DNA of 64,000 nucleotides from Oxalobacteraceae bacterium OTU3CINTB1 (GTDB lineage: Bacteria > Pseudomonadota > Gammaproteobacteria > Burkholderiales > Burkholderiaceae_D). Each line of letters begins with the position of its first letter. The first letter of the stretch is position 1. The notes beneath the pieces were generated by a model. The model saw only the letters and a list, made by a program, of their open reading frames with translations, searched no databases and was not told the origin of the DNA. The stretch covers positions 3,844,001-3,908,000 of the forward strand of contig CP099652.1 in assembly GCA_024123955.1 (NCBI GenBank), written 5' to 3'. This document shows positions 23,711-52,649 of this stretch, piece by piece. The position numbers and the translations under genes were made by a program.

Positions 23711-24937
23711 TTACTGGGGCAGCCCGGTCGTGGCGATGTCGGTGCCCGTATAGAGCAGCAGGTTGGGCGAGCCGGTGCCGGCGTTCCACACCTTGTTGGG
23801 GGTGGCGCGCGACTTGATCAGCTGAGCGACCTGGCTCGGGATCAGCGTTGGCTGGGCCTGGAGCAGCAACGCGACACTGCCAGCCACGTGCGGCGACGCC
23901 ATCGACGTTCCGCTCATCGTGGCCACGGCCGTATTGCTGGAGATGCCAGCCGACGTGATGGACGAGCCGGGAGCAAAGATGTCCAGGCAGCGTCCCCGGT
24001 TGGAGTAGGAGGCACGCGCATCGTTGCTGCCGGTGGCGCCGACGGTGATGGCCGACGGCTCGCGGGCCGGCGAACTGGTGCAGGCATCCACATTGGAATT
24101 GCCCGCCGCGACCGCCACGCTGATGCCGCGCGACACCACATTGGCCACGGCCCGGTCCAGCGTGGAGGAGATGCCGCCGCCGAGCGACATGTTGACCACG
24201 GCCGGACGTACGCCGTTGGCAGCCACCCAATCCAGGCCGGCCAGCACGCCGCTCATGCTGCCGGACCCATCGCAGGCCAGCACCCGCACCGGCACGATGC
24301 TTGCCCCTTTCGCGATGCCGTACGTGGCGCCGGCCGCCGTGGCGGCGACGTGGGTGCCGTGGCCGTGGCAGTCGTTGGTGCCATTGCCATCGGCAATCGC
24401 GCTATAGCCTGCACGGACCCGCCCGCCGAAATCGACATGGGAGGCGCGCACGCCGGTGTCCAGCACATAGATTTGCACACCCTGGCCGGTGGCCGCGTAA
24501 CTGTAGGCGCCATTGAGCGGCAAGGCGCGCTGGTCGGACCGGTCCAATCCCCACGGCGCGCTGGTTTGCGTGCTTTGGGTATGCGTCACAACCATGTCGG
24601 GCTCGATGGATTCCACCAGCGGATGGCGGCGGATGGCTTCCAGGTAGTGGGCGCTCGACTTGGTCGGCAGCGTCACCGTGAAGCCTTTGACGGCGTGTTC
24701 GTAGACGAAGTCCGGACGGGTGCCGGAACCATTGGCCAACGACTCGGCGTGCTGCTTCACGGCGCCGGCGCCGGGCTTGAAGACGATGATGTAACGGGTG
24801 CGCTCGGCTTGCGGGGACCGCTCCGAAGGCTGGGCGATCGCCGGCGTGCTCAGCACGGCGCCGAGCAACGGAACCATCACTACGGTGGACAGGGTGACAA
24901 ACGTGCGGCGCGCAGCGGCGCCTTGCTTCTGCAACAT
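23711..24937 (-). CDS. Secreted subtilisin-like serine protease (S8, proteinase K-like)
   Basis: 408 residues with a signal peptide (about 1-35, cleavage after AIA). An inhibitor-I9 propeptide ([19 protein letters not shown] to [11 protein letters not shown], ~49-116) and an S8 catalytic domain follow. The triad is Asp160 (YVLDTGV), His193 (HGHGTHVA) and Ser345 ([11 protein letters not shown]). It should be exported and self-process its propeptide. There is no C-terminal sorting domain or PEP-CTERM tail, so it is probably released by type II secretion. The mRNA leader carries a c-di-GMP-I riboswitch and a hairpin covering the Shine-Dalgarno (AGAGG, 7 bases before the ATG), so expression is likely tuned by c-di-GMP. 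It appears monocistronic. Confidence 0.93.
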
Positions 24938-24943
24938 GGTTTA

Positions 24944-24966
24944 GCCTCTATAACATTGATAGAGGC
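24944..24966 (-). promoter_or_regulatory. Shine-Dalgarno-sequestering hairpin (riboswitch expression platform)
   Basis: On the minus strand, perfect 8-bp arms GCCTCTAT and ATAGAGGC flank a 7-base loop. The 3' arm contains the AGAGG Shine-Dalgarno of the protease gene, ending 7 bases before its ATG. No U-run follows, so translational masking rather than termination is suggested. The 5' arm (CCTCT) could alternatively pair with AGAGG at the 5' edge of the aptamer (25064-25068). That is a possible switch; this pairing is inference. Confidence 0.6.
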
Positions 24967-24989
24967 CGGCAAGGAATGTAGTCCTTAGA

Positions 24990-25070
24990 CGGTAGCCCAG
25001 CTGCCATGGCGCGGACTGCGCTGTAGGCCTGAAGCTTTGCGTCCCGAGGCTTTCGCCTGGTTTGCCCTCT
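24990..25070 (-). promoter_or_regulatory. Cyclic-di-GMP-I (GEMM) riboswitch aptamer
   Basis: The minus strand reads, in order, AGGGCAAACC, a GAAA tetraloop closed by AGGC/GCCT, GGGACGCAAAGC, then AGGCCTA, a second stem, and ATGGCAGCTGGGCTACCG. The elements occur in the same order and spacing as in the Vibrio cholerae Vc2 aptamer: AGGGCAAACC, CGAAAG, GGGACGCAAAGC, GGCCTA, GGTAGCGGGGTTACCG. GGGACGCAAAGC is the most conserved GEMM-I segment. It ends about 50 nt before the protease start codon. The aptamer call rests on direct sequence match; ligand binding is established for the family, not tested here. Confidence 0.93.
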
Positions 25071-25203
25071 GGTTTCAATGAGAGCGAGGTTACCACGAAG
25101 ACTTGCGGCACAAACACTTAATGCGATAAGGACAGCCGGATTTCCGTGGCATGTCGCCTGCACACAACTAGCTCATCTGTAGAGGCCCAACGCCTGCCGC
25201 AGT

Positions 25204-25374
25204 CTAACGGCGCAAGCCATACCATGCGCAAGCGATGGTCGGAACACCGAGCGCGACGGCGGAGACGTAATCCCACACGCCGTCGCCCAGCAACGCGGAA
25301 ATCAGGCCGATCGCCGTCAGTATCGCCAGCGCGATGGGCGCTCCCCACATGCGACGGAAGGAACTCGCGCTCAT
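25204..25374 (-). CDS. Small membrane protein paired with PepSY gene
   Basis: A 56-residue protein beginning MSASSFRRMWGAP, with two hydrophobic segments (IALAILTAIGLISALLG and VSAVALGVPTIACAWYG) and a basic C-terminus (LRR). Its ATG at 25374 overlaps the TGA of the PepSY gene (ATGA), so it is translationally coupled. Similar tiny two-helix proteins commonly accompany PepSY-associated TM proteins next to siderophore receptors. Function unknown; a partner of the PepSY protein in the inner membrane is a reasonable guess. Confidence 0.75.
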   Translation of the reverse strand: MSASSFRRMWGAPIALAILTAIGLISALLGDGVWDYVSAVALGVPTIACAWYGLRR

Positions 25375-26543
25375 CGCGCCTCCCCTTCGGTGGCATAGGC
25401 GGGCTCGCGCACTTCCGCGACCACATCATCATCCTCTTTGCGCAAAGGGGCCTTGGCCTGCACGCCCCGCTTCAACCACAGATACAAACCGCTGCCCAGC
25501 ACAAAGATGGTGGCGATATCGAGCATCGCCCACAGGAACTGCATCCACGCGCCGCCGTAGTCGCCGAAGTGCAGCGGCTGCGACACCAGCAGCGCCGTCA
25601 GGTACCACGGCAACGCGCGGCGATCGGTGATCTCGCTGGTTTGCGCATCGATCAGCACCGGCTTGTACAAGCGCGACGTCAGCGCCTCGCTGCCATGCAT
25701 GAAGATGCCGTAATGATGCGGGCTGGAGAACGCGGTGCCCGGAAAGGCGACGAAGGCCACCTGCATGCCCGGCTCGGCGGCAACGGCGTTGTCCATCGCC
25801 TTTTGCATCGAACCCAACTTGCCCGGCAGCGGCATATTCTTATACGGCGCAATCATCGCCGCCATTTCGGTGGTTTGCCAGTACTTCACCAGCAGATCGG
25901 CCCAGGTGTTGATCATGCCGGTGGCGCCCACCACCAGCGCCCACGTGAGCGTGACGATGCCCAGCATATTGTGCAGGTCCAGCCATTTGACGCGCGGACC
26001 GCGCTCGCGCCGTACTTCGCCGAATTGCAGCTTGCGCATGAACGGCGCGTACAGCACAACGCCGGAAATGATCGCCACCACCAGCAGCAGCCCCATGAAG
26101 CCGAGGAACAATTTGCCCCACAGGCCGGCGTACAAATCCACGTGGAGGTGGAACATCACGCCCAGGAATGTGCCTTCGAAACTCGGCTCGCCCAGCACCT
26201 GCGCGGTGCGCGCATCGACGGCGACCGACTTGAAGCCCTCGTCGGTCGGATGGTCGCCCATCGTCAGGTACCAGATCTCGCGCTCGTCCGCCTCCTGCGA
26301 CATGTACATCACCAGCTTGTTCGGGTAGCGCGCCTTGGCGGCGGCGATGACGGCGTCAAGATCGGCTTTGGGCGTGTCCGGCGCCATCTTGGGCGCCTCG
26401 ATGGCGTTGCCTAGCAGGTGGTCGATTTCGTGGTGGTAGATCAGCGGCAAGCCGGTCAGGCACAGCAGCAGCATGAACACGGTGCAGACCAGGCTGCTCC
26501 ACTTATGAATCCAGGCCCAGCGGCGAACGGTAACAGGTGTCAT
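25371..26543 (-). CDS. PepSY-associated TM helix protein (iron uptake context)
   Basis: 390 residues with an N-terminal helix (WSSLVCTVFMLLLCLTGLPL), a large extracytoplasmic PepSY-type region, and further membrane helices (LGFMGLLLVVAIISGVVLY, IVTLTWALVVGATGMINTW and ATIFVLGSGLYLWL). H-x-W and aromatic patterns are typical of the PepSY_TM family. Members sit beside TonB siderophore receptors and are thought to help reduce or release ferric siderophores at the inner membrane. It is divergent from such a receptor, with Fur-like boxes between them, so it is probably iron-repressed. Confidence 0.87.
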   Translation of the reverse strand: MTPVTVRRWAWIHKWSSLVCTVFMLLLCLTGLPLIYHHEIDHLLGNAIEAPKMAPDTPKADLDAVIAAAKARYPNKLVMYMSQEADEREIWYLTMGDHPTDEGFKSVAVDARTAQVLGEPSFEGTFLGVMFHLHVDLYAGLWGKLFLGFMGLLLVVAIISGVVLYAPFMRKLQFGEVRRERGPRVKWLDLHNMLGIVTLTWALVVGATGMINTWADLLVKYWQTTEMAAMIAPYKNMPLPGKLGSMQKAMDNAVAAEPGMQVAFVAFPGTAFSSPHHYGIFMHGSEALTSRLYKPVLIDAQTSEITDRRALPWYLTALLVSQPLHFGDYGGAWMQFLWAMLDIATIFVLGSGLYLWLKRGVQAKAPLRKEDDDVVAEVREPAYATEGEAR

Positions 26544-50909: not shown

Positions 50910-52649
50910 CTATACCTTGATCAAGCCATATCCCCACTTTATATCATGCGCGCCGGCGGCCGAATCGGGCACGGCCGAATTTTTCTTCAACCACGCCTTG
51001 GCTTGCGCCGGCGTCGCCTTCGGGTTGCTTTCCAAGAACAGCGCCAGCAGGCCGGTGACCACGGGCGAAGCCATGCTGGTGCCCGCCATCACCCGATAGC
51101 CCTGGGCGATCACATCGTTTTTATCGACGCTGGAGGCCGACGACAGGGCTGACGCGATCATCGCGCCGGGCGCGGCGACGTCGGGTTTAAGGGCGCCGCC
51201 GCGCAGCGGCCCCGGGCTGCTGAATTCGGATATCGTGTCCGGCGCCAGGCCGACCGATTGCGGAGCGCCCGAAATATCGATCCACTGGTTGCGCGAGGTG
51301 TAGGAGGCGACCGTGACGACGTCCTTGCCGGAACCTGGCGAGCCGACCAGCGTATCGAAGACCGGCGCCAGCATCTCCGCCGAACCGTAGCGCTCCTGGT
51401 CGCTCAACAGCCAGACATCGACATCGGCAGCCGCGCCCGACTTGCGCCGCACCTCCACCTTCCACAGGCCGCCCTGCACCGCGCCCTGCCCGGACACCTC
51501 CACCAGGAATTGCCGGTCGCCGCCCGGCGCCAAGGATTCCGGCGTCGAGATGACCACCTGATCGCTGCCCAACATGGTCGTCTTGGCGGCCGGATCGGTG
51601 CCGAGCAGACCTTGCCACGGCGTCGCCGCGCCGGTGGAGCTGATGACCCGCACCTCGCATTTGGTTTTGCCCGAGTACCAGCCGTTGATCAGGAACCATG
51701 GCGCCGACAGGTTGGACCGCTTCGGCTGCACTTTGATCTCGAAACGCACGGCCTGGGCGGAATCGACCTTCTGCCGCGCATGGATCGGATCGCCGCCCTC
51801 GTTGCCGGCCGCCGCCACCACCAAGCGGCCGGGGCCGCATTCATCGCTGATCCCGACGCTGGTGTCGTCCTCGCCGTCGTGGCCGTCGAAGTGGCCGCCC
51901 AAACTGAGGTTGACGACGCACGGGCGCCCGAGCTTTTTGGCCTCGTCGAAGATCCAGCGGACGGCTTCGACGATCGCGCTGTTCTGGAAATTGGTCTTGA
52001 CGATGAGCAGGTCGGCGCCGCCGGCGATGCCGCTGAACGGCGCCACCGCGCCGCTGGCGATGCCGGCCACATGGGTGCCGTGGCCGTGCATGTCCGCACT
52101 GGCGTCCATCGACGCGCCCGTCAGCACGCGGCCCAGCTTGCTATAGCCGGTTCCGGGGCCTTCGCCGGCGATTTCCTGGTCCCAAATTTTCAGGATGCGG
52201 CCGGCGAAGGCCGGGTGGTTGACATCGATACCGGTATCGACGACGCCGACGATCACGCCCTCGCCGGAGACTTTATTCTGGGCGCGATATTCCGGCGCGC
52301 CGACCAGCGGCCCGGCGATATCCATCAGCGGGCGCAAACGCCTGGGCGCCGACACGCGCTCCACTTTTTCATCCTGCGCGAACTCCATCAGCTTGGCCGC
52401 CGGCACCAGCGCCGTCATCACCTCGCCGGAGCCTTTGACGAGCTTGATGCCGGCGACCGATTTGGTCTGCGGATCGGTACAGCGGACCAGGACGTGGTAA
52501 ATCGGCGCCAGGTTCGGCACGCGTTTTCTGACCGACAGCAAATTCGGCGCGCCGGTCACCTGTTCGGCTTCGCTCGATGCCAACAAAACGGCCAGGCTGG
52601 CCGACATCTTGTTTTTTCCGCCGACCGCGGACTTGGATTTGCTCGCCAT
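50910..52649 (-). CDS. Subtilisin-like S8 peptidase without signal peptide
   Basis: 579 residues. Residues ~45-110 resemble an I9-type prodomain. The S8 domain has Asp138 (GVVDTGIDVNH), His190 ([13 protein letters not shown]) and Ser525 (AGTSMASPVVTG), with a long insert (~300-440) between His and Ser that may be a jelly-roll or protease-associated domain. The N-terminus (MASKSKSAVGGKNKMSASLA) lacks a hydrophobic signal, so it may be cytoplasmic or exported another way. It is followed by a gene for a free prodomain-like protein. No secretion partner is nearby. Confidence 0.85.
   Translation of the reverse strand: MASKSKSAVGGKNKMSASLAVLLASSEAEQVTGAPNLLSVRKRVPNLAPIYHVLVRCTDPQTKSVAGIKLVKGSGEVMTALVPAAKLMEFAQDEKVERVSAPRRLRPLMDIAGPLVGAPEYRAQNKVSGEGVIVGVVDTGIDVNHPAFAGRILKIWDQEIAGEGPGTGYSKLGRVLTGASMDASADMHGHGTHVAGIASGAVAPFSGIAGGADLLIVKTNFQNSAIVEAVRWIFDEAKKLGRPCVVNLSLGGHFDGHDGEDDTSVGISDECGPGRLVVAAAGNEGGDPIHARQKVDSAQAVRFEIKVQPKRSNLSAPWFLINGWYSGKTKCEVRVISSTGAATPWQGLLGTDPAAKTTMLGSDQVVISTPESLAPGGDRQFLVEVSGQGAVQGGLWKVEVRRKSGAAADVDVWLLSDQERYGSAEMLAPVFDTLVGSPGSGKDVVTVASYTSRNQWIDISGAPQSVGLAPDTISEFSSPGPLRGGALKPDVAAPGAMIASALSSASSVDKNDVIAQGYRVMAGTSMASPVVTGLLALFLESNPKATPAQAKAWLKKNSAVPDSAAGAHDIKWGYGLIKV

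Follow-up and report, generated by a model that had tools for sequence, protein, structure and literature searches.

Introduction

The question raised by this locus is whether an RNA switch answering to c-di-GMP governs a secreted protease, and if so in which direction, and whether the arrangement extends beyond a single genome. According to a review, c-di-GMP riboswitches have been described before motility, chemotaxis, adherence and related genes (PMC6366702). The initial annotation of the 64,000-nucleotide stretch analysed here (the window) had placed such a riboswitch on the minus strand, about 50 nt before the gene of a proteinase K-like exported protease. Part of the explanation developed below is computed directly, namely the aptamer, its place, its recurrence ahead of this protease in those related genomes that were found, and a hairpin in which the Shine-Dalgarno sequence (SD) lies buried. 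Our preferred reading, to which we assign a probability of about 0.55, is that the c-di-GMP-I (GEMM-I) riboswitch in the subtilase 5' leader acts on translation and that c-di-GMP turns translation off, in which case the protease would be released when c-di-GMP is low.

The aptamer and the gene that follows it

24988..25076, minus strand: c-di-GMP-I riboswitch aptamer, full length (cmscan with RF01051, whole-genome search, R1 model)
23711..24937, minus strand: subtilase of proteinase K type, predicted to be secreted, 408 aa with I9 prodomain and S8 domain (Pfam and PDB matches)

The identity of the element was borne out by cmscan, in which RF01051 matched the minus strand at 24988-25076 with 69.4 bits (E 1.6e-11), far over the gathering score of 35, as the sole Rfam match above threshold in the 64 kb. 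The coordinates given earlier, 24990-25070, had the location right and missed a few bases at each end. The match spans model positions 1-87 of 87, cmscan marks no non-standard pair in it, and the 22 consensus pairs of the Rfam model helices are all standard; the succession of AGGGCAAACC, a GAAA loop, GGGACGCAAAGC, AGGCCTA and TGGGCTACCG, on which the annotation had relied, is present in the sequence, with the GCGAAAGC loop as the GAAA tetraloop. A covariance model of our own (R1), built partly from the window sequence, scores the aptamer at 82.6 bits. The P1 helix is absent from the Rfam consensus structure, and no clear P1 could be seen by eye in the window. Judged by its sequence, the element is a full-length c-di-GMP-I aptamer, and it is predicted to bind c-di-GMP. 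Model columns 11 and 83, which hold G and C in the window and are invariant in the alignment of 45 leaders described below, are taken by us to be the ligand-contacting G20 and C92 (Vc2 numbering). Members of a GEMM-I subgroup in Geobacter sense 3',3'-cGAMP via a G20A change; that the window aptamer would sense 3',3'-cGAMP rather than c-di-GMP is scarcely credible, given that the aligned G20 is G in the window and in every one of the 45 leaders.

The aptamer ends at 24988, exactly 50 nt before the ATG at 24937 of the open reading frame 23711-24937 (minus strand), in agreement with the distance first estimated. Both Peptidase_S8 (PF00082, E 1.6e-43) and Inhibitor_I9 (PF05922, E 3.9e-05) are matched over their cut-offs, and the best PDB matches of the 408-aa product are an extracellular serine proteinase (E 7.7e-105), a keratinase, aqualysin-1 (E 3.4e-98) and a bacterial proteinase K. 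The D/H/S motifs LDTG, GHGTH and GTSMASP are visible in the translation, and the N-terminus looks like a signal peptide by eye. A search of the 6.87 Mb genome returned one RF01051 match, before this subtilase; PF00082 is matched ten times in the same genome, twice within a single frame. A second Peptidase_S8 gene lies in the window at 50931-52265 (minus strand; a 583-aa frame with two partial PF00082 matches), with no riboswitch above the Rfam threshold.

Recurrence of the leader before orthologous proteases

Proteases of the 408-aa type were found in 3 of 74 genomes of the genus at E<=1e-60 (G000, G330 and G089), and in all three RF01051 lies upstream. It also precedes a protease 76% identical to that of the window in L033, a metagenome-assembled genome labelled Acidovorax (the label being the MAG's own), where the aptamer scores 80.1 bits; this is the closest protease and leader outside Duganella among the homologous loci. 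The expectation that the leader would be met again upstream of orthologous proteases thus held, and the original pairing of riboswitch and protease is supported by this recurrence together with the cmscan score. The window protease differs here from its proteinase K-like homologues at large, as R1, run over 79 homologous loci, placed an aptamer in three (L032, L033 and L066) within the DNA examined; at least 2 of the 79 loci start less than 300 nt from the match, and absence from these says little.

The aptamers of the two other Duganella loci share 96% and 93% identity with that of the window; in G330, 2 of the 22 consensus pairs are lost and the score is 55.4 bits. Across 16.7-28.9 kb of the window the three loci run collinear, with about 90% identity, and their conservation is only mild evidence because the genomes themselves are about 90% identical. 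Upstream of the aptamer two further features were noted.

25161..25182, minus strand: 22-bp block CTACAGATGAGCTAGTTGTGTG, a candidate activator site, identical in the three Duganella loci
25087..25114, minus strand: candidate promoter TTTGTG-16 nt-TAACCT, picked out by eye, whose transcript start would just precede the aptamer

The 22-bp block occurs at one place in the genome, even with up to 3 mismatches allowed. The candidate promoter is weak because a consensus scan found none at 25087..25114; the place aligned with it in L033 reads GGTAAAAT. At window 25187-25208, upstream of the conserved block, G330 and G089 carry about 600 extra nt (L222 8460-9077 and L221 8544-9146), within which G089 has a 162-aa open reading frame.

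Folding of the leader in the window

25066..25070, minus strand: AGAGG, proposed decoy strand copying the SD, on the 5' side of the aptamer (RNAfold SD-open state)
24971..24986, minus strand: hairpin A, AAGGA/TCCTT, directly after the aptamer and kept in the three Duganella orthologues
24943..24967, minus strand: hairpin B, GGCCTCTAT/ATAGAGGCT, enclosing the SD (RNAfold and leader alignment)
24961..24965, minus strand: CCTCT, anti-SD, proposed partner of the decoy or of the SD (masking)
24945..24949, minus strand: SD, AGAGG, 7 nt before the ATG
24954..25080, minus strand: candidate long-range helix CATTGA (25080-25075) with TCAATG (24959-24954) (RNAfold SD-open structure)

In the mechanism that we propose, the 5' aptamer strand AGAGG, a copy of the SD, would capture the anti-SD CCUCU during transcription when c-di-GMP is lacking, so that the real SD would stay open and the protease would be made; with c-di-GMP bound, the same strand would be held in the aptamer, the anti-SD would close on the SD, and translation would be off.

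Several elements of this scheme are visible in the leader. The SD is kept in 4/4 orthologous leaders, 6-7 nt before the ATG, and in all four RNAfold gives it a probability of being unpaired of 0.07 or less; masking GGCCTC (24967-24962) raised its local openness from 0.00 to 0.50. Hairpin B shows no covariation because its stem is nearly invariant in sequence. In the RNAfold SD-open state AGAGG at 25066..25070, whose last G we assume to be the ligand-contacting G20, pairs with CCUCU at 24965-24961, and the pairing is extended by the CATTGA/TCAATG helix, in which TCAATG is the loop of hairpin B; ATTGA and TCAAT are kept in the three Duganella leaders and not in L033, which keeps hairpins A and B and not the decoy helix. 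The window leader aligns with the class of leaders with a 5'-strand decoy treated below, its AGAGG falling on the decoy-strand position of 38 leaders of S53 sedolisins, and it has 5 of the 6 aligned pairs, an extra A-U pair and one G.G mismatch.

The direction of the switch is less easily read from the window copy. Its decoy has a probability of 0.96 in the free state and 0.76 when the aptamer is forced and G20/C92 are kept unpaired, and the decoy of G330 behaves alike (0.93 free, 0.73 bound). Of the 45 leaders these are the two whose decoy survives the forcing of the aptamer, although in both the constraint bars one of five pairs. Over the full length the SD of the window is closed both free and bound, and the structure with an open SD is 5.8 kcal/mol less favourable than the minimum. 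In these models the window copy is the weakest case of its class, with a shorter, mismatched helix that persists when the aptamer is forced and an unusually stable SD hairpin. Since the decoy hardly yields and neither computed state opens the SD, the sign proposed for the window would have to depend on kinetic folding.

The opposite sign has a claim of its own, since the ligand could stabilise a fold in which the AGAGG below the aptamer captures CCUCU, so that the SD opens and the protease is turned on. Forcing the aptamer pairs lowers the SD-open penalty in the window from 5.8 to 3.1 kcal/mol and, when a longer stretch is folded with only those pairs forced, raises the mean openness of an 8-nt segment at the SD from 0.02 free to 0.30 bound (0.01 to 0.08 in G089), and decoy and forced aptamer can coexist there (0.98 if G20/C92 are left unconstrained); V. 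cholerae has class I switches that act in either direction (PMC6366702). This rise nonetheless depends on the stretch folded, because a shorter stretch leaves the SD of the window at 0.00 in the free state and also in the bound one, whether or not G20/C92 are constrained, and among the 45 leaders the full-length SD is more open free than bound (by more than 0.05) in 19 and the reverse in 2. An ON switch seems to us unlikely, though the strongest of the competing accounts.

Somewhat less likely still is that the aptamer binds c-di-GMP and has lost its switching, the very stable SD hairpin keeping translation low with or without ligand, or another factor opening it. The SD closed in both computed states in 3/3 Duganella orthologues and the lost pairs of the G330 aptamer would fit such a loss, as would a class I switch of B. 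thuringiensis that binds the ligand with expression unchanged (PMC11218506). The near identity of the Duganella aptamers, with both hairpins kept, and the hairpin A of L033, in which AAGG/CCTT has become GGGG/CCCC with two pairs altered on both sides, speak mildly against it.

Control by transcription termination instead of translation is the mode of those class I riboswitches that are functional in C. difficile (PMC6366702). A terminator was considered for the window and rejected, as a scan of 24850-25400, which includes the interval from aptamer to ATG, found nothing resembling one on the minus strand, and no U run follows hairpins A and B; we hold this mode of control to be very improbable here.

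A proposed decoy helix in 45 aligned leaders

The alignment used here (A3) holds 45 leaders, namely 38 of S53 sedolisins, 3 of S8 subtilases from genus g24, those of the 3 Duganella genomes and that of L033; three S53 leaders with a chosen start 30 nt or less from the aptamer were left out (38 of 41 used), as was L066. Its blocks were aligned by MAFFT, which is blind to pairing, the frame of G089 replaces one wrongly chosen by the automatic procedure, and the start of G290 was set by hand. In this alignment aptamer columns 8-13 face a segment some 20-30 nt upstream of the start codon (ATG), and the helix so formed is paired in 96.3% of 270 cells, against 34-63% when slid by 1-3 columns; it ends past column 13, where the next position pairs in 1 of 45 leaders. 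Seven cells have changed on both sides, one pair going from G-C to A-U (3) and C-G (2) and the next from A-U to U-A (2). None of 500 shuffles reached that number of cells, the cells paired or the covariation score. For the count of pairs altered on both sides, 41/500 shuffles did as well, and for further pair types 79/500.

When the anti-SD block was masked, the local openness of the SD rose by more than 0.1 in 31/45 leaders and fell by as much in 0/45, against a mean change of -0.01 for blocks upstream of it. For transcripts that end immediately ahead of the SD, the decoy exceeds a probability of 0.5 in 42/45 if the aptamer is free and in 2/45 if it is forced while G20 and C92 are kept unpaired. 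This class result leans on the assumption about G20/C92, because with the aptamer forced the decoy stays above 0.5 in 29/45 when that constraint is dropped, and it is a sign of compatibility and not proof, because two of the six decoy pairs are excluded by construction. With these readings in mind, the leader class, as modelled, supports the view that translation would be off at high c-di-GMP, which for the window copy itself is only inferred.

Whole-leader thermodynamic folding was also tried as proof of direction and set aside as indecisive: the SD is more open free than bound in 18 S8 leaders, with the reverse in 4 (of 34), and S53 leaders have no preferred direction (17 vs 16 of 41). When single leaders are compared with their shuffled versions, the complementarity of the 5' strand in S53 leaders has p<=0.05 in 2/38 (median p 0.13), so that the S53 decoy case rests on position and covariation, single sequences seldom beating shuffles. 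In S8 leaders the best leader helix of the last 20 aptamer bases has p<=0.05 in 19/31 (median 0.035), and with the strands swapped the counts fall to 1/38 (S53) and 2/31 (S8). By this computed measure, the other S8 leaders pair via the 3' aptamer strand rather than the 5' one. A leader of like design was observed outside Oxalobacteraceae, in Aquincola tertiaricarbonis (L066 2369-2455; GAGGGC ... GTCCTCGCC ... GGAGCG), where about 68 nt separate the aptamer from the ATG of a lipoprotein-like S8 protease.

Association with peptidase genes across the family

A search with stricter filters, in which weak matches are lost, found RF01051 in 105 of 294 genomes of the family, at 144 places including one (G038) that scores under the cut-off and one (G155) that ends 69 nt before a contig end, so that no downstream gene can be named for it. 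The downstream gene was taken as the longest open reading frame within 400 nt, which may misname the gene at some places other than those of S8 and S53, and the latter two classes were assigned by phmmer against seven seeds. The 144 places precede 34 S8 subtilases and 41 S53 sedolisins, 75 together, one S8 case being doubtful (G218 C1, whose frame opens 410 nt downstream, E 1.4e-11). Ten of the remaining 69 places have HExxH in the setting HE(L/V)GHTLGL.HQG, and nine of these ten proteins match the M12 model Reprolysin_5 at E<=0.001; because all of these matches fall below the curated cut-off, we call the proteins likely metallopeptidases. The 85 peptidase places belong to 72 of the 105 genomes and to 14 of the 25 genera with an RF01051 match, although the counts of places are not independent, with 17 of the 41 S53 cases coming from one genus, and "secreted" means for the family a signal-like N-terminus judged by eye.

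PF00082 was matched in 33 of the 73 S8/S53 members scanned, a scan that left out G218 C1 and G067 C12 (at a contig end). One representative sedolisin matches S53 structures (best E 7.8e-10), and the other S53 assignments go by similarity to it, the weakest at E 1.2e-11 for a truncated gene. The genus of the window has 13 RF01051 places in 26 genomes, 12 of them before a subtilase and the thirteenth at a contig edge; 10 of the 12 subtilases are of another type, about 590 aa where complete. PF00082 matches are few in that genus, 1 to 11 per genome in 40 genomes. The association is thinner outside the family: among 30 loci from other families of the order, drawn from the best scores and examined for S8 and S53 genes only, 4 have the link, and a further instance beyond the family is L066 from Aquincola.

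Neighbouring peptidase genes each with its own RF01051 aptamer, about 2.2-2.5 kb apart, were seen in several places (L115, L116, L163, L187 and L178), with subtilases in G177, G228 and G011 and HExxH peptidases in G234; in G052 the copies are divergent and 0.7 kb apart. These arrangements suggest duplication of leader and gene together. One group of targets other than peptidases, mostly from one genus (g24), is lytic transglycosylase-like, an SLT domain being found in 10 of 68 scanned; g24 loci such as L027, L137, L150, L156, L157 and L168 share 46-51% identity with the SLT protein of L003.

Aptamer tree and possible transfer of leaders

A tree of the aptamers separates the window trio, together with L033 and 41 aptamers of S53 genes, from 28 other S8 aptamers (support 100/99.6). 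The position of L033 is intermediate, for with all rows included a further branch (97/82) groups it with the 28. Leaders may have moved between protease families, since the window subtilase has a sedolisin-type leader, unlike other Duganella subtilases. Topology tests, which left out 4 S8 aptamers (that of G218 and three of g24), did not reject a single S8-aptamer clade (p-AU 0.26 and 0.21) or a single S53-aptamer clade without the window trio (p-AU 0.52), and because both topologies stand, transfer is a lead and not a result. A search of the window genome at E 1e-10, run without a positive control, found no sedolisin donor.

The same decoy logic would, in our proposal, recur across the family in leaders of unrelated peptidases. 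The wider picture, in which the Oxalobacteraceae c-di-GMP-I riboswitch is an extracellular proteolysis module with two types of decoy leader (5' or 3' strand) before several unrelated secreted peptidase families, with leaders moved between families and a fall in c-di-GMP unlocking a set of proteases, is offered tentatively, at a little less than even odds.

Comparison with known systems

If about half or more of the family aptamers found stand before predicted secreted peptidases, extracellular proteolysis would be a main output of this RNA class, and the link would predict when Oxalobacteraceae secrete proteases. These might perhaps be switched off when a cell settles into a biofilm, and they may have the role in biofilm dispersal or matrix remodelling suggested from the outset. 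The decoy design would also be a simple test of wiring one aptamer to the ribosome site from either end.

In relation to RF01051 and its V. cholerae member Vc2, the window has a full-length aptamer match, with 22/22 pairs in common with the class by way of the Rfam model and not by direct comparison with Vc2; it is set apart from that class by its target, a predicted secreted serine protease, and by a leader with an SD-copying strand and an SD hairpin. The protease shares its S8 domain and I9 prodomain with the proteinase K/aqualysin S8 family. RF03167 (c-di-GMP-I-GGC) belongs to the same clan, and two G097 subtilase leaders (L124 2494-2589 and L125 4869-4964) fall under it by the clan's best match over RF01051; for the window aptamer the model reported is RF01051 and not RF03167.

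Among openly licensed PMC papers we found no earlier one on a family-wide protease link or a decoy leader. The nearest known case is the C. difficile secreted protease ZmpI/PPEP-1, which is lowered by a class I c-di-GMP riboswitch (PMC6366702). The zmpI leader and the window have in common a secreted protease under a class I c-di-GMP riboswitch, with zmpI regulated negatively, and the same review cautions that direction of regulation cannot be transferred between species. ZmpI is a zinc metalloprotease from a species whose functional class I switches act by termination, whereas the family studied here has S8, S53 and likely HExxH peptidases in many genera, and the control proposed is translational. 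The aptamer class itself is already known; what appears to be new, as far as the papers searched go, is that across the family it stands before peptidases of the S8, S53 and likely HExxH types, together with the decoy leaders.
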